A stretch of 35,024 nucleotides of DNA from a virus: positions 1-35,024 of the IMG/VR virus record IMGVR_UViG_3300034168_001358; one strand, given 5' to 3'. This document shows positions 7,031 through 35,024 of this stretch, piece after piece; positions within the stretch are counted from its first letter, which is position 1; each line of letters opens with the position of its first letter. The translations under genes and the position numbers were made by a program. The notes under the pieces are model-generated. The model was not told the DNA's origin and did no database searches. It saw only the letters and a list, made by a program, of their open reading frames with translations.

Positions 7031-7554
7031 GTGAAATTATTGAAATCATTGGAACCGGCTTGACGGGCCCTTCGGGCCCTCGCGGGTTGCCTGGCACAAA
7101 TGGAGCCGTCGGTCCCGCTGGAGCTGACGGCCCTGCTGGCCCTGCCGGAGTGGGAACCGTTGGAGCTGACGGCCCTGTCGGCCCTGCTGGAGACCGAGGG
7201 GTTGCAGGGGAGCAGGGGTTGCAGGGAGTTGTCGGCCCGCAGGGGGTCAAGGGCGAACGCGGGCTTACGGGACCGTCGGGGCCACAAGGCGAGCGCGGCT
7301 ACACTGGAGATTTAGGCCCCACCGGCTCAATTGGGCCTATCGGCCCTAGGGGAGAAGTGGGCACGCGGGGCGAGCGGGGAGAAATCGGGTTTCCAGGCAA
7401 CAACGGATCGCAGGGACCTCGCGGGTATAAAGGGGATATGGGGATCACGGGGCCTATCGGCCCTCTCGGCCCTCCTGGCCCCACGGGGGCTAAGGGACAA
7501 CAAGGAGTGGTAAGCAATTCAACAGTAATGGCATTGGCAATAGCGTTAGGATAA
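7027..7554 (+). CDS. Collagen-like Gly-X-Y repeat protein
   Basis: A 175-residue protein with an 11-residue head (MSEIIEIIGTG) and then about 48 almost unbroken Gly-X-Y triplets (LTGPSGPRGLPGTNGAVGPA and so on to GAKGQQG), rich in Pro and charged residues, ending in a short hydrophobic tail (VVSNSTVMALAIALG). Such triplets form trimeric collagen helices and are common in phage fibre proteins. The triplets vary in sequence, unlike the near-identical repeats of the second collagen-like gene at 21677. It starts by ATGA overlap with the upstream gene, just before the two giant fibre genes, so it is most likely a trimeric virion appendage or linker. Confidence 0.85.
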   Translation: MSEIIEIIGTGLTGPSGPRGLPGTNGAVGPAGADGPAGPAGVGTVGADGPVGPAGDRGVAGEQGLQGVVGPQGVKGERGLTGPSGPQGERGYTGDLGPTGSIGPIGPRGEVGTRGERGEIGFPGNNGSQGPRGYKGDMGITGPIGPLGPPGPTGAKGQQGVVSNSTVMALAIALG

Positions 7555-7558
7555 TAAT

Positions 7559-10500
7559 ATGAAACAACAGTTTACAGGAACATACAGCCTTGATGTAGTG
7601 AATCGCTACATCACACTTCACGACATTCAGCTAAAACCAGAGCAGGTTCTTTTGGTCGTCAATGCAACGGTCGGGTTTGTTTATCACAATTTTTCAGTGG
7701 ATGAGACTGCCAACATTTCAATTGTGGCGGGCAACACAAAAATTGAGTTCCCGCCTTACAAAGATTGCGACACCCACACGATTTCAGACGCGCTTGCGGT
7801 TTTTTATGACGACGGCGTTGACCTAGGGCAGCTCATTCTCACAGAGTCGAATGAAACTCAAACGCTCCTCCAGACCGAGTTTGACCTGACTCAATCCGAC
7901 CTCGCCGCTTTCCGCACTGAAGTTAAATCAGAGTCCGACGAAACGCAAAATGTTATTGTAGCTTTCCGCACTGAAGTTAAATCAGAGTCTGATCAAACTC
8001 AAAGCATTATTGGAGCTTTCCGCACTGAAGTCAAAGCCGAGTCCGACGAGACACAAAATGTTATTGTAGCTTTTCGCACTGAAGTCAAAGCCGAGTCCGA
8101 CGAAACGCAAAGCCTGCTTTTGGCAGAGTTCAATCAGACCCAAAGCGATCTAGCGGCGTTCCGTGTCGAGGTTAAAGATGAATCCGACGCAACCCAGACC
8201 CTTCTTCAGACAGAGTTCAATCAGACCCAGGAAGCGATTACGGGTTTCCGCCTTGAGGCTAAAAACGAGTCAGATGAGACCCAAGACCTTTTGCAGTTTG
8301 AATTTGACCAGACGCAGGACGCGATTTCTCATTTCCGCTCTGAGGTCAAATCAGAAATGGAACAGACTCAATCCGTCCTAGAGACGGAGTTCCATAATAC
8401 CCAAGCTGGGGTCGAGGCTTTCAAAACCGAAGTCAAAAACGAGTTCGACTCCACTCAGACCCTCCTAACCGACTTTAAAGCCGAGGCCAAGGCCGAGTCC
8501 GATGTCACTCAGGCGCTCCTTACCGACTTTAAAACCGAAGTCAAAAACGAGTTCGACTCCACTCAGACCCTCCTAACCGACTTTAAAGCCGAGGCCAAGG
8601 CCGAGTCCGATGTCACTCAGGCGCTCCTTACCGACTTTAAAACCGAAGTCAAAAACGAGTTCGACTCCACTCAGACCCTCCTAACCGACTTTAAAGCCGA
8701 GGCCAAGGCCGAGTCCGATGTCACTCAAACTCTCCTGACCTCATTTAAAACCGAAGTCAAAAACGAGTTCGACTCCACTCAGACCCTCCTAACCGACTTT
8801 AAAGCCGAGGCCAAGGCCGAGTCCGATGTCACTCAGGCGCTCTTGCAGAATGAGCTTGACCTAGTGAAAGAGAGAATCCTCGTTACGCAAGTTATTCTTA
8901 GCGAGGAGTTCGGGCAAACGCAAACGCTTCTGACCGATTTCAAAAATGAAGTCAAAGCCGAGTCAGACGAGACTCAAACTTTTTTAAGCGGTTTCAAATC
9001 CGATTTGCAAACTAAGCTCGATACCGAGTCGGGCGAGTTGCAGACCAAGATCGGCACCGAGTCTTCCGCAGTTCAAGGCACGCTGCTTGAGTATAAAGAC
9101 GCCATCGTCCTCAAGATGGGCACGGAGTCCGTGGCGATCCGCGAAAAGCTCAATGTCGAGTCCGGCGAAATTCAGACAGTCATCCAAACCGAATCGGGCA
9201 ATGTCCAAGGCAAGCTCCTCGAATACAAGGACGACATAGCGGGCACTATTGAGGCTCAATCTACTGCGGTCCAAACAAAGCTGAATGTCGAGTCTGGAGA
9301 AATACAGGCGGCTATTCAAACCGAGTCGGGCAATGTCCAAGTCAAGCTCCTTGAATACAAGGACGACATCGTAGGAACCATTGAGGCTGAATCAACTGCG
9401 CTTCAGACGAAGATGAATGACGAAAGCGCCGAGATCAAGCAGACCCTTGAAACTCAATCGCTCGCCATTCAAACAAAGCTCGACCAAATTCTCGTCGATG
9501 ATTTCAAAAACGCGATTGTCAACGCAGTCACCACCGAGGGTGACGAGATTCAGACCAAGCTCGGCGTCGAGTCCGACGAAATTCGCGCTGACCTTACCGC
9601 ATGGCGAACAGAGGTCAAAGCGGGCATCGACGCTGGACTTGACGCGACCGGCCCCAAAGACGCTCCAACCACCAATTCAGTTGAGGGCAACTGGTCCGTG
9701 GTGTCGTTGCTAAAAGGAATTTTTTATCAGATTTTTGGGAAACTTCCTTCACTCACCACCACTGGTCGCATCCCCGTGGATATTGGTGGGGATGGCTCCA
9801 TTACGGTAACGGCGGGGACCATTACGGTTCAAAATGAGGTCGAGATTAGCAATGATGAGGGGAATCCCGTCCCTGTGTCCATCGCCGCGCCGTTTGTAAA
9901 CACGAGTGATTCGACCATACGAACCTCTCTAGGCGCGACGATTGTCTCTGGGGACTCTCACAGCCTTATCCCTGGCCCAATCAATAAGCTGGCTATTGAT
10001 CTGCCCACGGGCAAAGACGCGACATCAAACATTCATCCAAGCGTTACCGTGCAGCCAGTCATCGGTTCTAGGAACTTCCCGATTTCGGCTGCTGCGCTCC
10101 CGCTTCCAACAGGCGCGGCAAGCGAAGCTACACTTTTAAGCATCGACGCTAAAACTCCGACGCTTAATGATGGCCGAGTCCCCGTCGGCCTCGGGGCCTC
10201 TATAGTTAGTGGCGATAGCCACAGCCTTATCCCTGGCCCAATCAATAAGCTGGCTATTGATCTGCCCACGGGCAAAGACGCGACATCAAACATTCATCCA
10301 AGCGTTACCGTGCAGCCAGTCATCGGTTCTAGGAACTTCCCGATTTCGGGAACCGTTACAGGACCTTTAACAAACACCGAACTTCGCGCTGCTGCTGTCC
10401 CCGTTTCGGGGCCGATGACGGCAAGCCAGTTCACCGACCGCTTTGGGGACTTTCTTACTACCGCAGCGACTACCGACACTGAAAGCACATCATTTTTGTC

Positions 10501-10999: not shown

Positions 11000-13900
11000 A
11001 TGGCACTACAAAGCACACTTCCTCACAAATCCACCCACGCCCTAGGGGGCACGGATGCTCTCACGCCAGCAGACATCGGGGCGATCCCAACGGTATCATT
11101 TGCTCTCGGCACAAGCAGTAATGCAGATTCGGTTTTAAGCGCGGGCACAAATCGAATCCTGACTTTTGAAACCTACAATTTCGATCAGGATCGCTTCCTT
11201 ACGCTACCGCGATCCACAGACGGGGCAAAGGCCGGAGACAGGCTTCGCATCCGGCACCGCGCTCAATTTCACATGGGCGGGCCCTTCCGCCTTGCGCTTC
11301 GCCAGTATGAAGTCGTTGCACCGCAGGGCTCCCCGCAATACGGCTCCGGGTTTGTCACTCTCGCTACGCTGGCAGACGGGGAAACCCTCGACCTGATTGC
11401 AAATGGTTCAACCCCGCTTCAATGGTTGCCCGTGACTACAGCAGCAGTTGCAAAATCTGGTGATACGATGACAGGGAAGTTGACTCTGCCAGCTTCAACC
11501 ACCGCCTCTGCTCCATTAAATATTCCGCATCCAGCCACGGGAACTGATCCTACATTTCCTTCTAGTGGAGATTTGTGGTTGAACGGACAGCTTCGATATA
11601 GCGACCAAACAGGCACAACTCGTTATGTCGCTGATCTAAATCGACCGAATACTTTTCAGCAAAACCAAATCATCTCCGCTGGTTCATCTACATCGGCAGC
11701 AGCATTGCGAATCATTCAAGAAGGGACAGGCGAAGCCCTCCGAGTCGAGGACAACAGCAGAGGAGTCTTCGGCATCACGGTCACGGCGCAGGGTTCCGGC
11801 TATACTTCAGCGCCCACGGTAACCATCGCCGCGCCCCCAAGCGGGGGGACACAAGCCACAGCCACAGCGTCTATCGCCGCTGGCAAAGTGACTGCAATCG
11901 TAGTCGCAAACTCCGGTAGTGGCTACATCTCGGCTCCTGCCGTTACCTTTTCCGGTGGAGGGGGCTCTGGGGCCGCTGCTCAAGCCCTTATCAGCCCAGA
12001 CACGACAGCATTCGTAATATCTAAGACAGGGAAAGTTGGTATCGGAGTTGCTCCTGATGAGACTGTTGCGCTGAAGTTGCCAGCTTCAACCTTGTCTTCA
12101 GTTCCATTAAATTTAGGTAATGGAGTTTCGCCTACAACAACAGTTCCAGGTGATGTGTTTTCTTCGGGAAATAATATATTCTTTAAAGGCGCAACAGGTG
12201 GGCCTTATATTTTTGCTTACAAAAATGACACGAATACATTTCTTGTCCCTCAAATAATTAGCACTGTATCTCCGACTGGAGACCCTGCCCCAGCACTTCG
12301 CATAACGCAAGCTGGAGGAGGAGAGGCATTTCGCGTCGAGGACAACATCAGAGCAGTCGTCAGCATCACGGTCACGGCGAAGGGTTCCGGTTACACTGTA
12401 GCGCCCACGGTAACCATCGCCGCGCCCCCAATCGGTGGGACCCAAGCCACAGCCACAGCGTCTATCTCCGGTGGCAAGGTGACCGAAATCGTAGTCACGA
12501 ACTCCGGTAGTGGCTACACCACCACCGCCACGCCGCCTGCCGTCACTTTTTCCGGTGGAGGAGGCTCTGGTGCCACCGCTTCAGCAGTCATCAGTCCAGA
12601 CACGACAGCATTTGTTGTTTCTACCACGGGCCGAGTGGGCGTCGGCGTTTCCCCAGACGCTACCGTGTCCCTATCTGTAGATTCGACTGGTATTAAGTTT
12701 AGCGATGGGAGCGTTCAGACGACTGTTGGGGCACCGCTCTATGATGACGGCTCCGGACAAGTCCAAAACACAGTCCTCCAAGCCACCCAGCTCTGGGATA
12801 ACGCGAATCAAGCAATAGGTCTTGCAATTAACGACGGCATAGTCGATTTGGGCCCCAATGCCGCCACATCGAATGTTGCTGCAAACTTCCGCACCGCCAT
12901 CGGCGCTCAAGCTGCGGGCGACTACGCCCCCCTTGACGACGACGGTCTCGTTCCCGTCGAGAAGCTCCCCGCCCTGTTGTTCGCACCGCCCGCACCGCTC
13001 TACCAAGCAACCTACTACAAAACCACGGATCAGTCTTTTGGGGCGAATGACGGGTCGTCTAACGAAGTCACATTTAATGCTGATGCGGCTTGGAATAATA
13101 GCAATGGCTATATCACGCACGCACCGGGCTCAAAGGATTTTGTCGTAGTCCAAGCGGGGATGTATCAGTTGGAGTGGAACGTCTCTGTCGCCGCGAACGG
13201 AGCGACGTGGAATACCGGAAATAACAAAGTAATTTCGATTGACCTTACTCGGGACATCGGAGGTCCGCTTTTGGAACGCGCTGTCATCGGTCAAACTGCG
13301 GTGGGGGCAACAGGACAAGACTACAGTCAAAGTGTTTGCTCTACTTTCCACCTCCAAGCAGGCGACGTTATCAATCTCAGCGTTTTCGGACTGTATGCCA
13401 CGAACGTGCCAGTAATTAAAGGCATTCAAAATGAAATTGATCTTAATAGTTGGTTCACATGGCGGTATATTGCTTCTGGAGCAACTCCAGACCTGTCTGG
13501 TTATGTTCTAAATGCCGATGCCCGTTTAAGTGATGCTCGCAAGCCACTCAATCTAGGGAGCCTCATCCTTCGCATCGACGGCACGGCCAATCTTGGCAAC
13601 ACAAGCAACAGCACGGAGTATGTCTTCCCGTGGAATGATGTTTACTTTCAGGAAGACCTTTCCTCAATGGCCGTAACTCCGCCCTCCCCCGCCGCAGAGC
13701 GGAACATTCTTCTCCCCGAGGCGGGGTGGTATTACTTAGAGGCCCGCTACACGTCCTTCGATATAACGAACCCGAACGCTTTCATGCGGATCAGGCTCCG
13801 CACGAGCGATACTCTGATTACGAGCGCAGACGCCGGTGCCCTCAGAGACGTTGTCGCAGTAGGCCGCACCGGCACATCCTTGAGTGGCGAGGCAAACGTC

Positions 13901-14672: not shown

Positions 14673-15143
14673 ATGAGACTCGCCCTAATCATACTGCTCG
14701 CCTATCTCGCCGCCGCGACTCTCGCCCTAGGGCTCACCCCGCAGGAAAAGGCTATCGTCGGCCAGATGCGCGACTCCATTAGCCTGCTCCGCGCTAAACT
14801 TGATGGCGCTCAATCCGCTAACGACAGCGCCCTCTCCGCCCTTACCATCGCGGCGTCTCAGTCCGCCGACCTCTCTGCGCAGGTCCAAACCGCCGCCGCA
14901 CAAGTAACGCTACTCGCCGCCGAGCGGGATGCCCTTGCTGCCAGAATCGCCGCCGCCGACATCGCCTACGAACGCCTGAATGCGCGTTATCAGACCGCCC
15001 AACTCATCATCGCGCTAGTCAGCGCGTTCCTTGTCGGTCTGCTTGTTTTGCAGTTCACTCACCGGCTATCCCCTCCCTACGGGTTCTTAGTTCCTGTCGC
15101 CGCAGGAGCTGCCGCTTTCTTCGCTATTTACAATATAATATGA
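14673..15143 (+). CDS. Membrane protein with periplasmic coiled coil (possible i-spanin/holin)
   Basis: A 156-residue protein with an N-terminal hydrophobic segment or signal peptide (MRLALIILLAYLAAATLALG), an alanine-rich helical stretch of about 90 residues (LTPQEKAIVGQM...AERDALAARIAAADIAYERLNARY) and two C-terminal membrane segments (about 110-128 and 138-154). The coiled coil between membrane segments would lie in the periplasm. It lies one base after the lipoprotein stop and ends with an ATGA overlap with the next membrane gene. A spanin partner or holin role is inferred from position only. Confidence 0.5.
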   Translation: MRLALIILLAYLAAATLALGLTPQEKAIVGQMRDSISLLRAKLDGAQSANDSALSALTIAASQSADLSAQVQTAAAQVTLLAAERDALAARIAAADIAYERLNARYQTAQLIIALVSAFLVGLLVLQFTHRLSPPYGFLVPVAAGAAAFFAIYNII

Positions 15144-15496
15144 AACACATCGCTCGCATCCTGTCCGCTTGGCAAGGACTTCTCGCAGGGGTCATTGCTG
15201 TTGCGCTTTACCTCGCTCTGCCCCTCGCTCTCCGCGCTTACGACCCGACAGCGGGGCTTTTCGATGCTGGGTATCTACAGTGGCTGGGTCTCGCAACGGT
15301 CCTCTCGTTCTGGGCCGTGTTTGTGGCATGGATTACTTGGCAGATTGCGTTCCGCTCCATCGACCGCTCCGCCGACAAGAATCTATCGCGTTGGTTCGAG
15401 GGTCTTTCTGACCGAGAAAAATGGTATAGCACGCAGGCCACTTTTGTTTTAATGCTGGCGTTATTCTTCGTCGCACTGAAACTCATCCCCCTATGA
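15140..15496 (+). CDS. Three-TM membrane protein, holin candidate
   Basis: A 118-residue protein with three predicted membrane segments (about 12-32, 45-68 and 97-117) separated by short charged loops (RSIDRSADKNLSRWFEGLSDREKWY). The size and three-segment layout fit class I holins, but no family is recognised. It directly precedes the endolysin with an ATGA overlap, the place where a holin is most often encoded. The best holin candidate of the cassette. Confidence 0.55.
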   Translation: MKHIARILSAWQGLLAGVIAVALYLALPLALRAYDPTAGLFDAGYLQWLGLATVLSFWAVFVAWITWQIAFRSIDRSADKNLSRWFEGLSDREKWYSTQATFVLMLALFFVALKLIPL

Positions 15497-16044
15497 AATA
15501 TGCTGTCGTCTTTATTGTTGCGCTGTTTTCCCACACTTGCTTTGGCGGCGGAACTCCGCAGGCGGGCTTGGATTCGCGGGAACGAGTGCTCGCTGTCGCT
15601 ATCAAGCTCATCGGAGTCACCGAGGCAACTGGAAAAAACGATGGACCCGTCATTGAAGCAATCCTTCACTCCACAGGAAATCGGCGAGGCGACCCGTATT
15701 GTGCATCGTTCAATTTTTGGTGCTACCAACAATCGGGGTTAGCGCAGCGCGTCCCTCGCTCCGCGTGGTCACCCGACTGGGTCCGCCAACCCACCTGGAC
15801 TAAAGCCCTAGGGGGTCGGACCCCGGAGCCTGCCGACGCGTTTGGCGTTTACTTCCCGTCAAAAAAACGGGTCGCCCACACGGGGCTGGTTCGGAAATGG
15901 GGGGCTGCCGCCGTTGTTACTATAGAGGCGAACACGGCCCCAGAAGCCGCCGCTGGCACTGCTGCGGATAGAGACGGGGGCGGCATCTGGAGCAAACGCC
16001 GACTCGTTCGGCAAATTCACTCTGTTCGGAACTGGATCGACTAG
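15493..16044 (+). CDS. CHAP-like cysteine peptidase endolysin with signal peptide
   Basis: A 183-residue protein. Residues 1-19 look like a Sec signal (MKYAVVFIVALFSHTCFGGG). The remainder shows a CHAP/NlpC-P60-type catalytic pattern: Cys70 in GDPYCASFNFWCY, His129 in RVAHTGLV and a polar third residue in TIEANT (E145/N147). LIGVTEATGKNDGPVIEAIL is a typical phage-endolysin lead-in helix. It would cleave peptidoglycan cross-links or amide bonds at the end of infection. A secreted endolysin would depend less on a canonical holin pore. It starts by ATGA overlap with the holin candidate. Confidence 0.75.
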   Translation: MKYAVVFIVALFSHTCFGGGTPQAGLDSRERVLAVAIKLIGVTEATGKNDGPVIEAILHSTGNRRGDPYCASFNFWCYQQSGLAQRVPRSAWSPDWVRQPTWTKALGGRTPEPADAFGVYFPSKKRVAHTGLVRKWGAAAVVTIEANTAPEAAAGTAADRDGGGIWSKRRLVRQIHSVRNWID

Positions 16045-17056: not shown

Positions 17057-19367
17057 CCAATCTCCCCTCGATATAAAAGGACTCGACCCCGTAACGGGGG
17101 CCGCACCAAAATGTCGCGTCGAAAAGGTGGACGCTGCCCGCTCCATTTATCTTGCGATCAAAAAATCCGATGAGGGCAGTTCCCGCAACCGCGCTTTGAT
17201 CGACGGGATGTTCAGCGGCAACCCGCCGTTCAACCCCAACGATTTGATTGAGATGGGGCAGGCGGATCGCACCAATCTCGATTTTGGAGACGCTGGGGCG
17301 ATCAAGGAACAGGCTCTTGCTGGCTACTACGACCTCACCAGCTCCGTCGATAAACTGGCTCGCGTGCAGACTAGCCATGGCACAGCGGAGCAGGCGGCGG
17401 AGTGGGGCGAGATTATCTCCGAAGAGTTTCATCACACCCTGCGCGAGTGGCGCGAGTTTGAGTTCAACCATCAGCGTCTCTCCGACTATTTCGTTTCCCA
17501 CGGCGTAGGCATTACCTTTTTTGAGGACGAAGTGGACTGGCGCTACCGCGTGGCGGGGCTCTCTGAATTTCGCATCCCTAGGGCAACCCGTGCGAGCGAG
17601 TCGGAAATCGAAGTTGCGACAGCCGACCGCGAATACCGCGCCGACGAGCTTTACGCGTTTATCCGCGATCCTGACGTAGCGGCGGAACTTGGGTGGGATG
17701 TTAAGACTACCCGCGCCGCCATTCAACGAGCCTGCTACGCGAATCAGATGATGACCCTCTCCGATTGGGAGAAGCTGGAAGTCGAACTCAAGAACAACGA
17801 CCTCCTCTACGGTCAGGCCAAGAGCAAAGTCGTGAAGGTCGTTCATATGTGGGTGCGCGAGTTTTCCGGCAAGGTCTCGCATTTGATTTTCCTCCAAGAG
17901 CCTCTCGACTCGCCGCTGGACAAAAGCGAAGGTTTTCTTTTTAAGCGGGAGAACCGCTTCGACTCGCCCACGAACTGTTTCGTGACTTTCTGCTACGGGG
18001 TGGGGAATGGCACCTATCACGGCATTCGCGGGCTGGGGTTCAAAATATACCCGCACATCCAAGTTTTGAACCGTCTGCGTTGCGGCATGGTGGATGGGGC
18101 TCTCCTCTCCTCGTCGCTCATCGTGCAACCAAGCGACAGCTCCTCTAGGGCGCTCGACGACCTGACGCTCACCTATTACGGCCCCTACGCACTCTTCCCG
18201 CCTGGGCTCAAGATTGTTGAAAAAGCCGTGCCGAATTTGCAACAAAACATCATCCCAGTCATCAACGACATGACGATGCAGATGCAAAACAATACAGGCT
18301 CTTACCAGACCCGCGCCACTACTCCTGATGGGCAGTCCCGCACCGCCTACGAAGTCCGTAGCCAGTTGCAGAAAGAGGCGACACTCTCCTCGGCGAGCAT
18401 CAATCTTTTTTACCACCCTTGGAAAAGACTCCTCAACGAAGTGTATCGCCGTCTAGCCCGCCGCGACTACACAGCATTGGAGCCAGGCGGAAAAGAAGCT
18501 GTTGAGTTTCGGAAACGCTGTATCAAACGAGGCGTCCCAATCGAGGCGATCCTCAAGGTCAAACAGGTCGATCCCGTCCGCGCCATTGGCTACGGCTCGC
18601 CCCAGATGCGTATGGCGGCGGTCGATGAGACCATGCAAATTTTTGGAAGCCTCGACGAGGCTGGGCGCATCAATCTTCTTCGCGACCGGATCGCATGCCG
18701 CTTCGGGCAAGAAGTAGTGGATCGCTACTTGCCCCCGCCTCAGACAAGCCTTCGGCCCCCGCTCGACTACAAAATTGCAATTTTGGAGAATGCTACGATG
18801 TCTTCCGGCAGTGGGATTCCCGTCAGCCCTGGAGAAAATCATTTTATTCATGCGTCCACGCATTTGCAGGCACTCGACCAACTCGACCAAGCAGTGGCAG
18901 AGGGCGCGGGCGACCCGCAGCGGGCTATTGTGGCGTTCCAGATGTTCTTACCACATCTCGGCCAACATGTGCAGGCGCTCGGCCAGGATTTGATCCGCAA
19001 AGACGAGGTCGCTCTCATGCGTCAACGTCTACAGCAGCTTCAGGCGAGTGCCCAGCGGCTGCAAGACGAGTTGCAGGCGCAGGCACAGAACGCACAAAAG
19101 GCCGAGCAGGCCGAGGGCGAGCGGCAACAAGTGGCGATGCAAGCTGAGTATGCGGCGATGCAGAAGAAGATTGCCGAGATGGAGCAACTCAGCCCCGAGG
19201 CGCAACAGAGGTTGCTTGAACGCCGCGCTGAAATGCAGATGAAGATTGAGAAGCACCAATCGGAGATGCAAATGAAGTCAGCTTCGACTCAACAAAAAAT
19301 GATTTTAGAGGACGCTAAGGCCGCTGCAAAAGTGAGGGCGTCCGCAGCACAAGCCCCCCAGATATGA
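17043..19367 (+). CDS. Portal protein
   Basis: A 774-residue protein. Typical portal features: an N-terminal region (MFSGNPPFNPNDLIEMGQADRTNLDFG) leading into helices that contact the capsid, a central beta/alpha wing (DWRYRVAGLSEFRIPRA), a long helical stem part (NIIPVINDMTMQMQNNTGSYQTRA), and a C-terminal barrel-like coiled coil rich in Gln/Ala/Glu (about 665-760, LMRQRLQQLQASAQRLQDELQAQAQNAQKAEQ). The size matches large podovirus portals. It forms the dodecameric DNA channel at the capsid vertex and docks the terminase. It is followed by coupled small genes and the scaffold. No protease motif is fused to it. Family inferred from architecture and position. Confidence 0.82.
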   Translation: MPESSQSPLDIKGLDPVTGAAPKCRVEKVDAARSIYLAIKKSDEGSSRNRALIDGMFSGNPPFNPNDLIEMGQADRTNLDFGDAGAIKEQALAGYYDLTSSVDKLARVQTSHGTAEQAAEWGEIISEEFHHTLREWREFEFNHQRLSDYFVSHGVGITFFEDEVDWRYRVAGLSEFRIPRATRASESEIEVATADREYRADELYAFIRDPDVAAELGWDVKTTRAAIQRACYANQMMTLSDWEKLEVELKNNDLLYGQAKSKVVKVVHMWVREFSGKVSHLIFLQEPLDSPLDKSEGFLFKRENRFDSPTNCFVTFCYGVGNGTYHGIRGLGFKIYPHIQVLNRLRCGMVDGALLSSSLIVQPSDSSSRALDDLTLTYYGPYALFPPGLKIVEKAVPNLQQNIIPVINDMTMQMQNNTGSYQTRATTPDGQSRTAYEVRSQLQKEATLSSASINLFYHPWKRLLNEVYRRLARRDYTALEPGGKEAVEFRKRCIKRGVPIEAILKVKQVDPVRAIGYGSPQMRMAAVDETMQIFGSLDEAGRINLLRDRIACRFGQEVVDRYLPPPQTSLRPPLDYKIAILENATMSSGSGIPVSPGENHFIHASTHLQALDQLDQAVAEGAGDPQRAIVAFQMFLPHLGQHVQALGQDLIRKDEVALMRQRLQQLQASAQRLQDELQAQAQNAQKAEQAEGERQQVAMQAEYAAMQKKIAEMEQLSPEAQQRLLERRAEMQMKIEKHQSEMQMKSASTQQKMILEDAKAAAKVRASAAQAPQI

Positions 19368-20213: not shown

Positions 20214-20218
20214 ATTTT

Positions 20219-20503
20219 ATGACACCCGAACAATTCCGCAGCAACGAGTTGCTAGTGACATCCTTCGCCTCGCTCCTCAAGACCAATGAATTTCAGACCG
20301 CACTCGCCATTATTCGCGACCTCGGCATGCCCCGCGAAGTCGGGGTTCCAGACGGGGTCAGCTTTGCCGAGTGGAACAGCCACCAGAACACAAGGCGCGA
20401 GGGGTATCACCAAGCACTCGACTCGTTTCTCGCCCTAGGGTCTCCGCTGCCTAAGCGCCGCAGCGACCGCGACCTCATGCCGTCTCTTGAGGCGGAGGGA
20501 TAA
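20219..20503 (+). CDS. Hypothetical head-operon protein (94 aa)
   Basis: ATG 20219 is preferred over the in-frame ATG at 20207, which lies inside the upstream gene. The product is predicted mainly helical: MTPEQFRSNELLVTSFASLL, then KTNEFQTALAIIRDLGMP, then REGYHQALDSFLALGSP. Not recognised. The phrase SHQNTRREGYHQALDSFLALG is reminiscent of short phage proteins between portal and scaffold. Contains one CCCTAGGG site (20433-20440) in the Leu-Gly frame. Confidence 0.6.
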   Translation: MTPEQFRSNELLVTSFASLLKTNEFQTALAIIRDLGMPREVGVPDGVSFAEWNSHQNTRREGYHQALDSFLALGSPLPKRRSDRDLMPSLEAEG

Positions 20504-23340: not shown

Positions 23341-24681
23341 ATGGCAGCACTACAAAACATTGAACAGCTTTTCGTTGAATGGGGCGGTCTCATCCGCAAC
23401 AACATCGCAAAGAACATCGTCACTTCTGACTTCTACCTCAAATATCTTCCTAAAGATAAGTGGGTTGATGGACAGGGCACCCAGATCAGCTACCCGATCT
23501 ACGAACGCTCGCTTTCTAGCGCAGCGGTCAACACCGCAGGGGGCGTAACCTTTGAAGCCTGGACATCTTCAGGCGGCGACGGCAACAAAGAGTCTACGAT
23601 TGGCTCCTACACCTCCAACCCCACCAACTCCAACTTGGTGGGCAGCAACGGCGGGCCAAACAACCGAGGCGGCATTGACGGCGGCGGGAGCCGTATCGTC
23701 GGTCAGAGCATCGACTCTTTTGGCGTAACCGTCCGCACCATGAGCCTCAAAAAGGCGGCTCTCAACAGCCCCGACATCTGCCTGGACGATCTTCAGTTCG
23801 CTTGGCAGGTTGAGGACCAGGTCAAGAACGTCGTGCGTGTTCTTTCCGAGAATACCAAGTATGTCTGGACAAACACCTATCAAGACGAGTATGTGTCCGC
23901 TTGCGGTAATCGGTCGGTAGCAATCAACAACTTCGACCCCACCACAAGTGCATTCCTAGCTACCCCCGCGACATCAAAACTCACTTGGGGCATTCTGGAA
24001 GCCATTTACGAGCAGCTCGGTTATGAGGGCGGCTCGATCAACCCATTCAAGCGTGTTGACGAGATGACTCCGATCTACGCGGCTGTTGGTGAGCGTTATA
24101 CGTTCTCCGACCTTAAGCGTCAGGACGCCAACGTCCGCGACGACTACCGCTATGCCTACATGGGCAGTGGAGAGAGCAACCCGATGATGGCGGCCCCTGG
24201 GCTCAACACGATCACTCGTGGATTCCAGTTCTTCACCGTCGAGCTTCCTCCTCGCTTCGAGTTTGACGCCGAGGCTGGCGAATGGGTGCGCGTGTTCCCA
24301 TACGAGCCAATCGCAACAAGCCGTGGCATGAAATGGGAGATCAGCGCACGCTACAAAGCGGCTCCGTTCACCGATACAGTGATCTATCACCAAGACGTGA
24401 TGAAAATCCTCACGCCTTCCCCTCGCACCAGCAAGGGCGGCGGCATGACCTACAACCCATCCTTTAGCTGGGCTGGAGAGTTCGTGTGGCGCAACATCCC
24501 CGACCGCGAGAGCAACATCGACGGTTCGACTGGCTTCTTCCGTGCGCTTTACGCCTACGGTGCCAAAGTCGAGCGCCCAGAGTTGGGCTTCGCAGTCCGC
24601 CACCTCCGCTGTGTGGATCGTGCAACCGATCTCACCGATTGCGCTGGCGACCAGGTCTGCCCACCAGCACCGGTCCTCTAA
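23341..24681 (+). CDS. Major capsid protein
   Basis: A 446-residue protein. It follows the scaffold group, has its own promoter and leader, and its composition (many Asn, Tyr, Pro, aromatic strands such as FFTVELPPRFEFDAEAGEWVRVFPYEP) is that of a capsid shell protein. N-terminal MAALQNIEQLFVEWGGLIRNNIAKN would be the N-arm; residues 75-115 form a Gly/Asn/Ser-rich loop (SSGGDGNKESTIGSYTSNPTN...GIDGGGS), possibly an extended surface loop. The HK97 fold is inferred from gene order, not from a motif. Terminal residues CAGDQVCPPAPVL have two Cys. The stop is followed by a large stem-loop. Confidence 0.75.
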   Translation: MAALQNIEQLFVEWGGLIRNNIAKNIVTSDFYLKYLPKDKWVDGQGTQISYPIYERSLSSAAVNTAGGVTFEAWTSSGGDGNKESTIGSYTSNPTNSNLVGSNGGPNNRGGIDGGGSRIVGQSIDSFGVTVRTMSLKKAALNSPDICLDDLQFAWQVEDQVKNVVRVLSENTKYVWTNTYQDEYVSACGNRSVAINNFDPTTSAFLATPATSKLTWGILEAIYEQLGYEGGSINPFKRVDEMTPIYAAVGERYTFSDLKRQDANVRDDYRYAYMGSGESNPMMAAPGLNTITRGFQFFTVELPPRFEFDAEAGEWVRVFPYEPIATSRGMKWEISARYKAAPFTDTVIYHQDVMKILTPSPRTSKGGGMTYNPSFSWAGEFVWRNIPDRESNIDGSTGFFRALYAYGAKVERPELGFAVRHLRCVDRATDLTDCAGDQVCPPAPVL

Positions 24682-24685
24682 CTGG

Positions 24686-24732
24686 CCTCAAACACCGCTC
24701 CTCGGCCCTAGGGTCGGGGGGCGGCATTGAGG
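24686..24732 (+). terminator. Stem-loop after major capsid gene
   Basis: Outer arms CCTCAA and TTGAGG, inner CCGC/GCGG, and a CGGCCCTAGGGTCG centre. There is no T-run after it (TTAAAAACCG), so it is not a typical intrinsic terminator; it may stabilise the 3' end of the capsid message, partly stop transcription, or attenuate the connector genes. Its apex holds the only intergenic CCCTAGGG site. Confidence 0.4.
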
Positions 24733-24760
24733 TTAAAAACCGTAACCCGTAGAAAAAAAT

Positions 24761-27489: not shown

Positions 27490-30270
27490 ATGGCCACTCT
27501 GGCTCTAAGAACGCCCTATCTTTTTGCTGATTACCCATCCGCAAGAATACTCTGCCCTATAGTGGAGGGAGACACCACTACGATAATCAACCTGACTTTT
27601 AAGTCCACGGGTTTGCCAGATTATGTTGTTTCCGTTCAACCAACTGGGGTCGCGGGGGAAGTTCTTTTAGGGTGGGCAAAAGCGGACAACAACAAGATAC
27701 GGGGGTTCATAAACGGGGTTGCGGTGGCGTTTCAGTTCACGCCGCCAACCACCACACCAAGCATCCCCTTCCTCGACCAAACAGGAGTTACCTTTGAGTT
27801 TAACTCAAACAACACCGAAGCAGTTGTTACCGCACCTGGGGCGCAGGTAATCACTTTTGCTTTGCCAACTGTCCAGGTAACTGGAGACGATGGAGAAGTA
27901 ACTACTGTTTCGGTAAAGTTAATAAAAACCCTAGATTTAGTAACAGAGGGAGGGACGGTAACTTTAGCGACTATAAGCGTGCCTGTTGCGTTGTCGGCGT
28001 CCTCTACATCAGGGCTAACTACTTTTACTTTCACCTCTTCAGATATTACAGCAGCCACGATAACCGAGGGGGATGTTTTAACTTACCTAGACGGCAAAAA
28101 AACCGTTGTTATCACTGCGAGTCAAAGCGGGAATGAAGATTGGCTCCCCGCGACTGCTACTATTACTCTAGCCCCTAAAACATTAAAAACCCAGCAAACG
28201 GTGACGCTCTCTGTAGCGGTGGCGTCTCTTTCCCTAGGGCAGACCACTACGTTTACGGCTTCAGCCTTTGTCTTCGGCACTATTCAGCCTTCTGGGTTGC
28301 CTGTTACGGTAACAACCCTTAATCCAAGTATCGTTTCTATTAGCGGGAATAATCTTGAAGGAGTTTCCCCCGGCGCTTCAATTATTTATGCGGAGCAGGG
28401 GGGTGACAGCACTTACGAAGCGGCAAACACTGATGGTGTTTTGGTCGTTGTAAATAAGAACTCGCAAACTGTTACCTTCCCAACCGATCTGTCGGGGGTG
28501 AAGGTTGGAGACGAGTTGCAGCTTTCTGCGACAGCCAGTTCTGGGCTCCCAGTTACTTTTTCAAGCTCTGACGACTCCGTGGCGACAGTATCGGGAGGCG
28601 CGGTTTTGTATGTGCGATCCCAAGGCGCTGCGGACATTACTGCCTCTCAGGCGGGCTCGGACATTTACGACAAAGCCCAAGTTACCAAGACTGTTACGAT
28701 AGGCGCGAGTGACCAGACAATCAACTTTCCTGAAATGGCTCCCCGAGCATTTAATTCGCCTGATTTTGCCCTAGAGGCTTCCGCGTCATCGAACTTGCCG
28801 CTCACATATACCAGCTCCAACCTGTCCGTGGCAACGGTCTCTAGCGAGGGGGACGTTCTTACTTACGGGGTTGGCAGCTCATTCATTACTGCGAGCCAAG
28901 CGGGAAATACTTACTGGCGGGCCGCAGCTTCAGTGCAGAGGCTTTTAACGGTGGTAAAAGCAAAACAAACTATCTCGTGCGAAGTGCCTTCGCAGATAAA
29001 CATCTCGGAGCGGGCGCTTCTGAAGGCGACTTCAAGTTCGGAAGAGTCGGTGGTTTTTTTTGTCTCCGGCGCGGCGTTAAAGATTACTGAAGAAGACGGC
29101 AACTACTACATAACGGGCGCTGCGGAAGGTCAAGGAACCGTGACCGCAAGCGTGGCGGGCGACGCAAACTACGAAGCAGAGTCTGTTAGATTTAATGTGG
29201 ATGTGGGGCGGCAATACCAAGAGATCGTGTTCCCGCTCATTGAGCCGCGCACATTTAATTTTCGTTCGTTTTCGTTAATCGCCTCGGCGACTTCGGGGCT
29301 GCCGGTGATCTTAAGCAGTTCCGCGCCCGCCGTGGCGAGCGTGAGCGCAGGCGGGTTGGTGGCAGTCAATAAAGCAGGGGTCACGACTATTACGGCGTCT
29401 CAGGCGGGGGGCTTGGAGTGGTTTGCCGCAACAAGCCTGCAAAGAATACTTGTCATCGACAAGGGGGAGCAGCAAATTAGTTTTTTCCCTCCCGCCCCAG
29501 TGCCATCCACCACGGCGAGCATCTCCCTTTCCGCAAGCGCCATAGGGGGCGCTGTGGCTTTCAAAAGCTCTAACCCGCAAGTGGTTCAAATGAACGGCAG
29601 TGTGGCTGTTATCAAAGGGGTCGGGGCAGCAAGAATTGTTGCCACCCAGGCGGGCAACGACGATTACCTGCCCGCCGTGGCAGTGGTTCCGATTATTGTT
29701 GTGCCCGTGATTGATTCCTCTGTGACACCGCTAAATAGCGTTTTGGATCACGAGTCGCACGCCTCCACATCCGTTTCACCCTCGACAAGCGCCGTGGCGG
29801 TCGTGTTGGGGACTCCTACCACGCTCGACCGCGAGGACCATAACTCATTGTTACTTTCCCTTGTCCTGAACACGGGGGATGTCGTGCCGCCCAATACGGT
29901 CTTGGATCACAGTGCATTCAGTTCTCGGGAAGTCTCAACAATCTTTACCGGAGATTCACAGACCCTCTCAGGGGGCTCCGACCATGAAGGCTACTTGGCA
30001 GGAACGAGCCCCGTGTTTTCTGGGGTTGCCGTGGTAGCAGATGCCGCAACAGAGCGGGATTTATCGAGCTATGCGGCTTACATTGCCTCGGTAGCTGACC
30101 ATGCCGCCTCCGAGTGCGTGAGGGCGAAGTATGACGGACGAGACTCGTTCGAGGTATATTTTGCTTCATCCCTGAGCGCCCCCGAAGGTTACTTGCTTAT
30201 CCAGGGGGGCGCGTATTTATTGTGGGGCCGGACAAATCAAGATTTCCTTCAGGGCAAAATAATAATATGA
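27490..30270 (+). CDS. Ig-like (BIG/MBG) repeat virion protein
   Basis: A 926-residue protein. From about residue 150 to 740 there are six to seven Ig-like repeats of about 85-90 residues with the signature SGLPVTFSSSD.SVATVS...G.ADITASQAG...Y..A....TV. plus QTI.FP (for example LPVTFSSSDDSVATVSG and LPLTYTSSNLSVATVSS). This is the bacterial Ig-like (Big_2/MBG) style, usually found on surface adhesins and phage tail/fibre proteins that bind carbohydrate. The C-terminal part has four short D-(H/R)-E/S-x-(H/F) repeats (LDHESHAS, LDREDHNS, LDHSAFSS, SDHEGYLA). It overlaps the Tail Collar gene at its stop (ATGA). Probably a host-contact protein. Confidence 0.75.
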   Translation: MATLALRTPYLFADYPSARILCPIVEGDTTTIINLTFKSTGLPDYVVSVQPTGVAGEVLLGWAKADNNKIRGFINGVAVAFQFTPPTTTPSIPFLDQTGVTFEFNSNNTEAVVTAPGAQVITFALPTVQVTGDDGEVTTVSVKLIKTLDLVTEGGTVTLATISVPVALSASSTSGLTTFTFTSSDITAATITEGDVLTYLDGKKTVVITASQSGNEDWLPATATITLAPKTLKTQQTVTLSVAVASLSLGQTTTFTASAFVFGTIQPSGLPVTVTTLNPSIVSISGNNLEGVSPGASIIYAEQGGDSTYEAANTDGVLVVVNKNSQTVTFPTDLSGVKVGDELQLSATASSGLPVTFSSSDDSVATVSGGAVLYVRSQGAADITASQAGSDIYDKAQVTKTVTIGASDQTINFPEMAPRAFNSPDFALEASASSNLPLTYTSSNLSVATVSSEGDVLTYGVGSSFITASQAGNTYWRAAASVQRLLTVVKAKQTISCEVPSQINISERALLKATSSSEESVVFFVSGAALKITEEDGNYYITGAAEGQGTVTASVAGDANYEAESVRFNVDVGRQYQEIVFPLIEPRTFNFRSFSLIASATSGLPVILSSSAPAVASVSAGGLVAVNKAGVTTITASQAGGLEWFAATSLQRILVIDKGEQQISFFPPAPVPSTTASISLSASAIGGAVAFKSSNPQVVQMNGSVAVIKGVGAARIVATQAGNDDYLPAVAVVPIIVVPVIDSSVTPLNSVLDHESHASTSVSPSTSAVAVVLGTPTTLDREDHNSLLLSLVLNTGDVVPPNTVLDHSAFSSREVSTIFTGDSQTLSGGSDHEGYLAGTSPVFSGVAVVADAATERDLSSYAAYIASVADHAASECVRAKYDGRDSFEVYFASSLSAPEGYLLIQGGAYLLWGRTNQDFLQGKIII

Positions 30271-31615: not shown

Positions 31616-32311
31616 ATGACACCACTTGTTCCAGGCACTTTAGTTCTAGGAGAGGACTCTTACCCCTCAACGCCGCAAGGGCTTCTTAACCTGTTTGCGG
31701 GAAACCTTTTTGTGCCCCCACAAGTTTTAAACTTCTACAAGCATAACAGCGCGGATCAAGTGCCGTCAGACTCTTTGTGGTATAGCACGAATAACGCGGC
31801 CTTAAAAGTTAGGCCAGACGGCATGGGGTGGCTGAACATTCTTGGGGGCAATACGGCTTATCGCGTCCGCCCCGACAATGACGGGATTGCGGCTAATACG
31901 AGGCTTTTTTCAAAAACTAGCGCCCCTACGGCAACGAACGGAACTGAGGTGTGTTCGGTGTCTCTCACTCCTAGGGCGCTCTCAAACCGTGTTATTGTGG
32001 TCGCCCAAGTTCCGGCGATTACAACATCGGGCGACAACATTAACATTTTTGGAACGATTCGGGCTGGCGGCAGCGCCCCGTTCACCATGGCAACTACTTT
32101 TTGTAGGGCGGGCAACTTCTCTAGTCTTCTTGTGGTGGGCGTGCATTCTCCAGGCCCCGCCGATCTTGCCGAGGGGGTGCTGAACTACGCTTTGAATATC
32201 GGCACCGACGACGAAGTGGCGTCGATTTACTACAACCGCCAGTCGCCTACGGACGCGTTCGGAAATTTTCTTACCACGCAGATGATTGCTACGGAGATTC
32301 CTATAGGATAA
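31616..32311 (+). CDS. Fibre-associated virion protein
   Basis: A 231-residue protein. First part: LVLGEDSYPSTPQGLLNLFAGNL...NFYKHNSADQVPSDSLWYS; then RLFSKTSAPTATNGTEVCSVSLTPRALSNRVIVVAQVPAITTSGDNINIFGTIRAGGSAPF, strands alternating as in a jelly-roll; and the C-terminal YYNRQSPTDAFGNFLTTQMIATEIPIG, a pattern I recall from the ends of phage fibre heads (I-A-x-E-I). It follows the Tail Collar gene. The leader AATAAATATGCA has no Shine-Dalgarno sequence. Contains TCCTAGGG near 31970. Role as a fibre tip or spike inferred. Confidence 0.5.
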   Translation: MTPLVPGTLVLGEDSYPSTPQGLLNLFAGNLFVPPQVLNFYKHNSADQVPSDSLWYSTNNAALKVRPDGMGWLNILGGNTAYRVRPDNDGIAANTRLFSKTSAPTATNGTEVCSVSLTPRALSNRVIVVAQVPAITTSGDNINIFGTIRAGGSAPFTMATTFCRAGNFSSLLVVGVHSPGPADLAEGVLNYALNIGTDDEVASIYYNRQSPTDAFGNFLTTQMIATEIPIG

Positions 32312-32312
32312 T

Positions 32313-32966
32313 ATGGAGGCTACAACTTTCACCTCTGCTAAAACCACGCTTGCCCCTTATGTGGACAACGGCGTAAATTCAACAGAATCGACGCGCATCG
32401 AATCACGCATCAATGAAGCCCAGCGTCGTCTGATCGACCACTTCAACTATCTCTGCCGCCGTGAAGAACTGGAGCGTGTTGCTTTGATTTATAGTGCTGG
32501 GACTCCGACATCTGACTTAATACTGGATAACTTGGACGCGACCAAGGTTCTAATTCTTGCCCTTTGGCGGGAAGAGAACAACGAACTTGAAATGGCTGCG
32601 TCCTTGGAAAAGCGGGCGTTGGACATGGTCGAGCGCGATCTCATGCAGGAGGTCGAAACCGGGCGCAGGGAGGCGTATCAACTCCTCGAAAGCTCGAAAG
32701 CCTACAACACCCTAGGGGGGCTCGTTGGGCGGCTCGGTCTTGAAGTCGTGCCGCGCTACCGCATCGCCCCCGACCGACTTCGTTCCTATATCCGATCAGC
32801 CTACCGCCTCGCGGTGGACCATCACAATTATGTCGTGCGCCGCGAGGCGCTGGATCGCCCCGCGATCACGGCAAACACTCTCCCCACAGACGACTCCACT
32901 TTGGCGATCTCTACAGAAGTCATCCGCGAAATCGTCATTTCACAAATGGCACAAGACAACACATAA
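32313..32966 (+). CDS. Adaptor-like tandem-repeat virion protein, member 1
   Basis: A 217-residue protein with two copies of a helical domain. The N-terminal copy starts TESTRIESRINEAQRRLIDHFNYLCRREELERV, typical of phage head-tail adaptor proteins (R-x-x-x-I-N-x-A-Q-R-R-L), followed by ATKVLILALWREENNELEMAASLEKRALDMVERDL. The second copy (VETGRREAYQLLESSKAYNT...GGLVGRLGLEVVPRYR...RSYIRSAYRLAVDHHNYVVRREA) is the form that recurs in the next two genes. This is probably a neck or connector protein, the simplest member of the three-gene family. Confidence 0.6.
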   Translation: MEATTFTSAKTTLAPYVDNGVNSTESTRIESRINEAQRRLIDHFNYLCRREELERVALIYSAGTPTSDLILDNLDATKVLILALWREENNELEMAASLEKRALDMVERDLMQEVETGRREAYQLLESSKAYNTLGGLVGRLGLEVVPRYRIAPDRLRSYIRSAYRLAVDHHNYVVRREALDRPAITANTLPTDDSTLAISTEVIREIVISQMAQDNT

Positions 32967-32971
32967 AAACT

Positions 32972-33841
32972 ATGGCACAACAACAACAGCAAAACGAAAG
33001 CGACCCAGTCAGGGTTGCTGGCGACCCCACTAAAATAAGCGCGTTCGATATTATCGAGCGCAACATCATACGCGATGTTGAGTCGTCCCGTAAAACTGAG
33101 TTCCAAGCCTTGGAGAGCGCAAGCAACCAAAATACTTTTGGTGGTTTGGTCGGTCGAATCGGGCTTGAAACTTTTGACAAGTATCGCAATACAGCGGCTC
33201 GCGTAGCCAGCTACGTCAATCAAGCCTACCAAGCAGCCATCGACCACCACAATTATCTGACGCGCAGAGAAGAGCTTGACGCGGCTGAACTTACTTTTGT
33301 CGCTAAGGACATCAGCCTCGTGGCTGACAAGGCAACCGCGTTTGACTCAAAGATACCAATTGAAGTTGTCGGGCAGCTAACTCGGGCGCTCATGATAACT
33401 GATGCGGGGCAGGATGGCTCGGTGCTTAAAGGTCAAGCACTCGGGCTCATCGAGCGAAATGTTACGACATCAGTTGAAAAAAACCGCAGGATCACATTTC
33501 AAAATCTGGCAACCGGCAACCAACAAAACACATTTGGCGGCCTCGCCGGACGTATCGGTCTCGAAACAGTGGCCCGCTACCGCCTCTCCGACACCCGAAT
33601 CAAAAGTTACATCAATCAGGCATACCAAGCCTCCGTCGATCACTATAACTTTGTAGCCCGCCGCGAGAACTACCACCAGCCCCAGCTAATCTTTCTTCCG
33701 CTCACCGCAGAGAGCAGCTCTTTTGATGAGGCGATCCCTGCCGAAGTGGTGCGGCTGATCGTGTTGTCCTACATCCAGAATGATGCCGCTGATCGTCCTA
33801 CGGCTGGACCGATTGCGTCAGGAGCGGGCAGAAACGAATAA
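32972..33841 (+). CDS. Adaptor-like tandem-repeat virion protein, member 2
   Basis: A 289-residue protein with two full repeats: residues 25-156 and 157-272, each with IERN(I/V)...(V)E..R, QNTFGGL(V/A)GRIGLET...YR.....(V/I).SY(V/I)NQAYQA...DH(H/Y)N(Y/F)..RRE, a strand, IP.EVV..L. and (repeat 1) DAGQDGSVLKGQA. The N-terminus MAQQQQQNESDPVR is likely flexible and the C-terminus (ADRPTAGPIASGAGRNE) too. The start has no Shine-Dalgarno sequence (AACATAAAAACT). It lies five bases after member 1 and ends one base into member 3. Same possible connector role. Confidence 0.6.
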   Translation: MAQQQQQNESDPVRVAGDPTKISAFDIIERNIIRDVESSRKTEFQALESASNQNTFGGLVGRIGLETFDKYRNTAARVASYVNQAYQAAIDHHNYLTRREELDAAELTFVAKDISLVADKATAFDSKIPIEVVGQLTRALMITDAGQDGSVLKGQALGLIERNVTTSVEKNRRITFQNLATGNQQNTFGGLAGRIGLETVARYRLSDTRIKSYINQAYQASVDHYNFVARRENYHQPQLIFLPLTAESSSFDEAIPAEVVRLIVLSYIQNDAADRPTAGPIASGAGRNE

Positions 33842-35024
33842 TGCAACCGCCCGAACCCGCCAAGTCAGTGAATTTCGATCCTTTTAGGAGCGAAGCGTTC
33901 TCGCTTATCGAGCGCAACATAGCCACACAGGTAGAATCCGAGCGGAAAGCTCGGTTTTCTACGCTTGCGGCGCTGGGGCAAGATACGTTCGGGGGGCTGG
34001 CGGGTCGGGTCGGGCTTGAGACATTTTCCGCTTATCGCCTACCAGAGGCGCGGGTAAAAAGTTATATTAACCAAGCGTATCAACAATCCATAGACCACTA
34101 TAATTTTGTTATCCGCCGAGAGGACAAGGAACGCATTTCTCTTACGTTTTTGTCTTTGACTGGGGACCTACAAAAATTTGACCCGCTCGTCCCTTATTGT
34201 ATTCCCGTGGAGCCGATACGCTTGTTGGTCATTGCACTAATCATGCTAGACGCGGGGCAGGACGGGACCGCAATCAAAACTCAGGCATTTGATCTCATCG
34301 AACGGAATGTTATTGCCGTTGTTGAACGAGACCGAAAAGAGGTGTTCCAAACTCTCGCCTCTCCAGGGAGCCAAAACACTTTTGCTGGCCTGGTCGGTCG
34401 CGTCGGGTTGGAGTCGTTCAAAGCCTACAATCTGACTCCCGCGAGGGTGGCGAGTTATGTGAACCAAGCTGGGGCAATGGCGGTAGACCACTACAATTTC
34501 TTGACCCGCAGGGAGGAGAACGAACTCCCCTCGATGGAGTGGTTGCCTAGGATGACGCCGGAGGACGACGCCGAGATAGCGACGCCGCTCGTTACGGCGG
34601 AGGGGGTCCGGCTACTCACGGTCTCCTTAATTGTGCTGGACTCAGGGCAGGACGGCTCGGGCATGAAAACCCAGGCGTTTGACTTGATCGAGCGCAATGT
34701 CATAGCCTCCGTCGAACTCGCCCGCAGAGGGGCTACGGGGGAAGTGGGCCGCCTACACAACGAGCTGACCACGGGCCTTAAAGTGCCCAGTGCTCGACTA
34801 ACCAAACTGCTCAACCAAGCAGTCTCCGAGGTGATTTCGCACCAGAATTTCCTAGCCCGCGCTGATGATGATGACATCCCCTCCCCTCCAATAACCTACG
34901 AGCAAAAACGCCTCCTAGTGGAGAGCTATCTTGCTGCCCTTGCCGGTAACGCGGAAGCGTCCCTAGGGCTAAAAAAAGCCGCCTTGGATTTGGTTGAACG
35001 CGACAGGGTGGCAAACGACGAAAC
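33841..35024 (+). CDS. Adaptor-like tandem-repeat virion protein, member 3 (partial)
   Basis: Open frame from ATG 33841 (inside the TAATG of member 2) to the right edge, 394 codons so far, so it is truncated by the window. It holds three repeats beginning near residues 18, 142 and 273: FSLIERNIATQVESERK, FDLIERNVIAVVERDRKEVF and FDLIERNVIASVELARR, each followed by the GR(V)GLE..., NQAYQQS(I/A)DHYNF..RRE and AGQDGxxxKTQA motifs (the third is more divergent: LTKLLNQAVSEVISHQNFLAR). A fourth begins at LDLVERDRV. A CCCTAGGG site lies at 34961-34968. Confidence 0.65.
   Translation, partial: MQPPEPAKSVNFDPFRSEAFSLIERNIATQVESERKARFSTLAALGQDTFGGLAGRVGLETFSAYRLPEARVKSYINQAYQQSIDHYNFVIRREDKERISLTFLSLTGDLQKFDPLVPYCIPVEPIRLLVIALIMLDAGQDGTAIKTQAFDLIERNVIAVVERDRKEVFQTLASPGSQNTFAGLVGRVGLESFKAYNLTPARVASYVNQAGAMAVDHYNFLTRREENELPSMEWLPRMTPEDDAEIATPLVTAEGVRLLTVSLIVLDSGQDGSGMKTQAFDLIERNVIASVELARRGATGEVGRLHNELTTGLKVPSARLTKLLNQAVSEVISHQNFLARADDDDIPSPPITYEQKRLLVESYLAALAGNAEASLGLKKAALDLVERDRVANDE

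Follow-up and report, generated by a model that had tools for sequence, protein, structure and literature searches.

A CCTAGG-core octamer iterated in a phage clade and in Hymenobacter polaris: a probable host-linked palindrome of the HIP kind

The palindromic octamer CCCTAGGG is iterated far above expectation in the virus record IMGVR_UViG_3300034168_001358, all 35,024 nucleotides of which were analysed here (the window). The same word is iterated throughout a clade of related phages, in at least two phages unrelated to that clade, and in the genome of Hymenobacter polaris RP-2-7. We think it probable that CCCTAGGG is a host-linked counterpart of the highly iterated palindromes (HIPs) of cyanobacteria, maintained through drive or selection by some host DNA system.

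Results

8-mer counts in the window were compared with Markov-model expectations. An initial annotation, made from the sequence alone, had reported eleven exact copies of CCCTAGGG and an excess of about tenfold or more. Eleven copies were found, and the excess is stronger than was claimed: 0.36, 0.32 and 0.41 copies are expected at Markov orders 1, 2 and 3, so that the word is 27-35 times over-represented and remains exceptional after correction (Poisson P(>=11 | 0.41) = 9.5e-13). Expectations rise to 1.7, 6.6 and 10.7 at orders 4, 5 and 6, because such models already hold most of the palindrome. The core CCTAGG, put at about 18 copies by eye, occurs 17 times where 4-5 are expected at orders 1-3. 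The rarity of CTAG that served as a backdrop to the original claim does not hold in the window, which has 63 copies against 69-77 expected. All the near copies that had been listed were recovered, three of CCCTAGGA (254..261, 6627..6634 and 6879..6886) and one each of ACCTAGGG (7821..7828) and TCCTAGGG (31969..31976).

An equal excess of many other GC-rich palindromes had been named as grounds for dismissing the word, and no other 8-bp palindrome comes near its count. The runner-up among 8-bp palindromes, CTTTAAAG, has five copies, four of which lie at exact 108-bp steps within a 1144-amino-acid open reading frame (ORF; window 8473-8797) and are therefore probably a local tandem repeat. When words with at least six copies in the window were ranked, 28 of the 30 most extreme 8-mers had at least ten copies each inside a tail-fibre repeat at 21.6-22.5 kb; the remaining two are CCCTAGGG and its overlap GCCCTAGG, neither of which is present in that repeat.

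Codon choice does not explain the excess, as the annotation had argued. Over 200 synonymous-codon shuffles of the called genes the mean was 0.41 copies and the maximum 3, where the genes in fact hold 9; the same procedure in four other phages gave 0.56-0.86 against 9-26 observed. Both stop-free phases are used, as had been noted, by six and three of the genic copies. Across 61 distinct contexts from 12 clade sequences no longer common motif surrounds the word; a G directly before it is mildly preferred (29/61).

The first four sites of the window lie in separate ORFs: 7344..7351 in ORF 7027-7554 (collagen-like repeats, by eye), with CCCTAGGG also at the aligned place in the related phage G007 (G and L numbers label the compared records and loci); 11040..11047 in the tail-fibre-like ORF 11000-14047; 14725..14732 in ORF 14673-15143; and 15806..15813 in ORF 15493-16044. 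The sites at 17576..17583 (ORF 17043-19367) and 20433..20440 (ORF 20207-20503) are both retained in G007 and G006 and altered in G003, G001, L014 and L006, while the copy at 21580..21587 (ORF 20507-21673) is the same in G007 and reads TCCTAGGG in G006. Further sites fall at 28232..28239, in ORF 27490-30270 for a structural protein with an Ig domain (phrog_215), at 32710..32717 in ORF 32313-32966, and at 34961..34968 close to the contig end, the last being the same in G003 and L006 and altered in L014, G007 and G006. The copy at 24706..24713 occupies the tip of a strong predicted RNA hairpin (24684..24740, plus strand; -36.3 kcal/mol, z -6.37) after the ORF for a 446-aa protein, with the loop falling within CCCTAGGG. 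This bears out the stem-loop site of the annotation, and G003, G001, G007, L014 and L006, the five relatives that align there, all keep the word unchanged.

Between diverged phage groups, a CCCTAGGG site is matched by CCCTAGGG at the corresponding position in 50 of 176 cases against 14.2 for a same-phase local 8-mer control (about 3.5-fold), and in 142 of 234 against 88.7 when all pairs, including close ones, are taken; these counts come from overlapping pairwise comparisons and are not independent. Copies in the window are spaced more evenly than at random (squared coefficient of variation, CV2, 0.18; P 0.004), and four other phages lean the same way (P 0.08-0.27, none below 0.05). With a simple gene caller, 27 of 109 sites in six phages are non-coding where 10 are expected, and the enrichment is similar in H. 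polaris (27/90 vs 11.4).

A search with the 446-aa protein (23341-24681) yielded 55 related viral loci, and the same excess extends to 17 of them (2-15 copies each against 0.03-0.21 expected), the other 38 having no copy. A tree built from 54 rows, without the partial loci L053 and L059, places all 16 that are word-rich (15 loci plus the window) in a single clade with support 99/96, one change and no word-free member; L056 and L057 sit on very long branches, an effect of unchecked frames. Twelve whole word-rich records hold 9-34 copies each, one of them 28 in 72.9 kb and another 34 in 41.9 kb, against 0-1 of the reversed control word GGGATCCC, and five shorter ones hold 2-7. Counts in whole records covered 13 of the 38 word-free loci, and 12 of these have no CCCTAGGG in 44.6-83.1 kb.

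The exception, G1550 (L479-L482), lies outside the clade and has six copies, all within 41116-60780 (about 20 kb), where 0.09 are expected. Its site at 46013 and an adjoining TCCTAGGG stand in a gene that is 92% identical in protein to a G1549 gene with neither word, and several substitutions separate the words from the G1549 sequence. Judged from this alignment, some CCCTAGGG sites arose within a conserved gene, and G1550 possibly represents an early stage of word acquisition.

Variant words differ between sublineages. CCCCAGGG/CCCTGGGG number 36 against 2.8 expected in G003 and 18 against 1.7 in G001. Throughout the sublineage of G003, G001, L006 and L014 this pair is 11-13 times above expectation, as if the word there were CCCYAGGG. 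G010 is rich instead in TCCTAGGG (25 copies, 1.3 expected), CTCTAGGG (13), CCCTAGGT (10) and CCCTAGTG (9), with about one expected of each of the latter three. Near copies deviate at positions 1, 2 and 8 in G010 and at positions 4 and 5 in G003 and G001.

At least two phages unrelated to the window clade also iterate CCCTAGGG. They came from scans of viral collections for close pairs of the word (at least 342 loci). L559 has 28 copies in 14.3 kb against 0.41 expected and encodes a P22- and SU10-like portal and an SU10-like adaptor; L460 is the same phage, with six identical proteins. Contig 3300012894_000123, a tailed phage with terminase, tape measure and head protease, carries 6 copies in 12.0 kb (L636) and 5 in 13.8 kb (L238), and the tetranucleotides of these two loci resemble those of Hymenobacteraceae (r 0.82-0.86). 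L427 and L218 were rejected as dispersed cases, their copies being mainly local non-coding arrays or close pairs.

Among bacteria, H. polaris RP-2-7 (G013; Bacteroidota, Hymenobacteraceae) has 3302 copies in 5.6 Mb, one per 1.7 kb or about 590 per Mb, and none of the reversed word. It was reached through a genome scan for three close copies that returned at least 115 loci and was not a census; among these, only L084 had three or more separate sites, and it led to H. polaris. Nineteen other genomes from the scan have 6-236 copies. In 200 Hymenobacteraceae genomes the next highest counts after H. polaris are 916 (G169) and 902 (G216), about 150 full octamers per Mb, followed by 177, 128 and 117. 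Phylum surveys, which were samples rather than censuses, reached at most 48 copies in 288 Verrucomicrobiota genomes, 69 in 395 Bacteroidota genomes (H. polaris aside), 346 in 244 Cyanobacteriota genomes (in a genome of 4.1 Mb) and 146 in 398 Pseudomonadota genomes, this last in G023, itself chosen from the repeat scan. One cyanobacterium has GGGATCCC, a known alternate HIP, 4096 times in 3.0 Mb, so the survey is able to detect HIPs.

The enrichment in Hymenobacteraceae extends to the core. In 140-kb samples, H. polaris has 90 CCCTAGGG against 2.7 expected and 177 CCTAGG against 42, and G169 has 201 CCTAGG against 44, often as ACCTAGGG/CCCTAGGT; CCTAGG is thus 4.2-4.5 times above expectation in both, with deviations from the octamer mainly at positions 1 and 8. 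Beside this excess there is strong avoidance of other palindromes, CGATCG and GGATCC being absent from all three Hymenobacteraceae samples (L347-L366).

Other features of the window were also annotated. The terminase large subunit is encoded at 4885..6663 (plus strand; phrog_2, E 1.3e-13). The 446-aa structural-region protein at 23341..24681 (plus strand) has no PHROG match; from its position it is perhaps the major capsid protein. The integrase at 3396..4655 (minus strand) has no Pfam match and is 59% identical over 407 aa to a G003 gene that itself matches phrog_1 (integrase; E 5.2e-20). Adjoining it, window 4773-4791 (minus strand) resembles by eye the 3' tail of a transfer RNA (tRNA) or transfer-messenger RNA (tmRNA), and this stretch varies among the window, G003, G001 and L429. 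The stretch may be an attachment core and so a clue to the host, but because Rfam gave no match above its cut-offs there, we drew no conclusion about the host. No tRNA genes were found in the window or in 12 relative loci. A further element, TAATAACC, is repeated between genes in G003 (L060-L063), in G010 (L070-L072) and in the window (6667 and 16349), and in G003 it is often followed by CCAAC-rich spacers and AAGAAAGGA ahead of ATG. Since TAATAACC is common in word-free sister phages too, it is unrelated to CCCTAGGG.

Discussion

Short, palindromic and GC-rich, with CCTAGG at its core, CCCTAGGG lies scattered in and between genes and would be renewed as sequences diverge. We infer the steps that lead from the word to a mechanism. 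A DNA-handling system of the host would push mutations toward CCCTAGGG or make bearing it advantageous; the candidates are a DNA-organising protein or, on the model proposed for cyanobacterial HIP1, a modification enzyme that works together with mismatch repair. Phages that replicate long in such hosts would acquire the word too. That at least two unrelated phages and H. polaris iterate the same word makes a host-linked origin likelier than a private packaging or nucleoid site of the phages. The dispersed functional site proposed in the annotation therefore stands in part: clade-wide excess, aligned recurrence and even spacing in the window agree with it, and its private phage form is the less likely one. 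The other proposal, a modification target, found no support in the part that we tested, namely the two methylase families described below. We also put forward, tentatively and as the less probable outcome, a more far-reaching version: some Hymenobacteraceae and the host of the phage clade would write CCTAGG-core palindromes as a genome-wide self word into any DNA that replicates in the cell, phages being overwritten in turn and G1550 being caught early after a change of host.

Several observations weigh against the host-linked interpretation. The methylase families PF00145 and PF01555 do not track the excess. Among 19 Hymenobacteraceae genomes, PF00145 is absent from the seven richest (71-3302 copies) but occurs in the next, G036 with 70 copies, and in 5 of the remaining 11; PF01555 occurs in H. 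polaris, G169 and G062 and is absent from G216, G210, G212, G047 and five phage records. G001 encodes a 5-methylcytosine (m5C) methylase (L064 6519-8057, minus strand; PF00145, E 4e-30), and no homologue of it was found in the other clade loci searched. Genomes and phages also disagree in detail: sites are clumped in the stretch of H. polaris examined (CV2 2.03) and evenly spaced in the window, G169 lacks the non-coding enrichment (1/19 vs 2.3 expected), and G216 is weak in a 102-kb sample (50 CCTAGG vs 25, 2.0-fold). The tetranucleotide signature of L636 and L238 is no closer to H. polaris than to L528, a Hymenobacteraceae sample poor in the word. Several of the 17 word-rich loci are near-identical phages, the recurrence comparisons overlap as stated above, and the excess in the related phages maps to one clade, which may allow a phage-inherited cause.

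The host of the window phage is the other weak point, for our searches did not identify it. Tetranucleotide composition hints at Verrucomicrobiota: the best single match of six phages (four word-rich, two word-free) was always a sample from that phylum, with r = 0.54-0.63 for the four word-rich phages, although it is also the most-sampled phylum in the comparison. When scores are averaged by phylum, the highest go to Cyanobacteriota (three samples) for G010 and G007 and to Planctomycetes, with one sample, for both phages without the word. The 288 sampled Verrucomicrobiota genomes are without the excess, and a profile of the 446-aa protein found no match in 363 genomes of the phylum, in a search that had no positive control. 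Homology searches added little. Megablast with 25 kb of the window found no match among 50,697 phage records; the terminase gave two weak matches and none in plasmids, the 446-aa protein none, and the integrase a single weak one, to an Akkermansia phage (23.6%). The DNA polymerase of G003 has matches in many phages, none of those listed exceeding about 27%.

It is unlikely, in our judgement, that the phages own the site, with a phage-encoded packaging, replication, recombination or DNA-condensing protein binding CCCTAGGG and the clade keeping its sites. Such a protein would account for an excess confined to a single clade of the tree, for recurrence by aligned position, for the even gaps of the window and the lean of four other phages, and for sublineage-specific forms such as CCCCAGGG/CCCTGGGG in G003 and TCCTAGGG in G010. 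Moreover, several G003 genes, those at 6300-6644, 12140-12904, 13000-13707 and 16859-17890 among them, recur in relatives rich in the word, and five word-poor records lack them all. A Pfam scan of ten such genes, one only in part, gave one tail-tip domain and nine proteins without a match, and a PHROGs scan of two gave none, so no recognised DNA-binding candidate emerges among them, though a protein without a match could still play that part. Phage ownership is also hard to square with the iteration of this word in at least two phages from outside the clade and in a bacterial chromosome. Host modification as a shield, in which modified sites would mark phage DNA as self and many sites would benefit the phage, appears quite improbable. 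Absence of palindromes from phage DNA fits restriction pressure, and the window lacks many: GCCGGC, CGATCG and CTCGAG have no copy each where about 15 are expected. Known restriction shields, however, work by avoiding or modifying sites and not by multiplying a word; no cognate methylase was shown, and the m5C methylase of G001 stands alone among the clade loci searched.

A pure by-product is one form of the host-linked explanation: biased mismatch repair, acting with methylation or deamination in the host, would make CCCTAGGG without benefit to anyone. The new sites in G1550 agree with this, as does the excess in G003 and G001 of the transition neighbour CCCCAGGG/CCCTGGGG, which a process changing C and T there would give, and a model of this kind has been proposed for HIP1 in the text of Elhai 2015 (PMC4390886). 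Yet that neighbour is not in excess in the window, G007, G006 or G010, no m5C methylase gene is common to the rich Hymenobacteraceae, and each G1550 site needed several substitutions. Positional recurrence exceeds the local control, although a repair-driven word would persist too. On balance we find a benefit-free origin doubtful. Chance, coding bias or a mobile repeat can be set aside almost completely: taken alone, the window count is modest, but its Poisson probability, the synonymous shuffles, the lack of a longer motif in the 61 contexts and the enrichment of the whole clade all speak against them.

A second iterated palindrome would offer a tractable case: it belongs to a different phylum, a named strain carries it, and its phages are short enough to be compared base by base; site birth is visible in G1550, and the writer could be sought in H. 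polaris. If the word is host-imposed, it would help to assign hosts to uncultured phages, and if the self-word version is true, it records their host range. In the literature searched, of which coverage was partial, none of the papers listed describes CCCTAGGG as iterated in any bacterium or phage. The main text of a metaepigenomic study of Lake Biwa (PMC6329791) contains no 'ctag', and mentions of CCTAGG in the consulted part of PMC10745947 were rejected as a precedent, being located in primers.

Other classes of short words offer partial parallels. DNA uptake sequences are non-palindromic words of naturally competent bacteria. Chi, KOPS and similar words are asymmetric, strand-biased, over-represented and dispersed; CCCTAGGG shares over-representation and dispersal with Chi and KOPS and differs in being a perfect palindrome. 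Restriction sites are normally avoided rather than multiplied. Like the uptake sequences of Pasteurellaceae and Neisseriaceae, as described in the portion of PMC1939737 consulted, CCCTAGGG is a short word iterated through a genome; unlike them it is palindromic and is iterated in phages as well, and nothing here bears on uptake. Its CCTAGG core is what AvrII-type restriction-modification recognises (PMC1939737, same portion), but CCCTAGGG is multiplied and no such system was shown in these genomes.

The closest parallel is with HIP1 (GCGATCGC), first reported in 1995 (reference in PMC1939737), for which the reason for iteration has been open since. As set out in the available text of Elhai 2015 (PMC4390886), HIP1 and alternate HIPs are iterated in cyanobacteria at around 500-2500 per million bases, with GGGATCCC the prevailing form in two thermophilic Synechococcus; near copies depart from the full word chiefly at the first and last positions, and the paper links these palindromes to methylases and to a methyl-directed repair, proposed there, that favours the word. 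Octamers as frequent as HIP1 occur in very few bacterial genomes (J. Elhai, unpublished, as cited in the 2012 text of PMC3497702). CCCTAGGG differs from HIP1 in its CTAG core ('ctag' does not occur in the main text of PMC4390886), in its carriers, which are Hymenobacteraceae and phages, with a similar density in 0 of 244 sampled cyanobacteria, and in that no cognate methylase was found when PF00145 and PF01555 were looked at. As for density, H. polaris (about 590 per Mb) falls inside the HIP range, the window has 314 per Mb, and the phage records span 237-826, with 4 of 12 inside. Deviation at the ends, a HIP trait, is seen in two Hymenobacteraceae samples, whereas G010, G003 and G001 also deviate inside the word. 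In its main features CCCTAGGG nevertheless resembles the HIPs: it is a perfect GC-rich palindrome far above Markov expectation genome-wide, in phages and in H. polaris, and like HIP1 it is iterated through the genome, at roughly one per kb in its denser carriers, with a core that is fixed and outer positions that vary in some of them, and with alternates that appear sporadically among related genomes.

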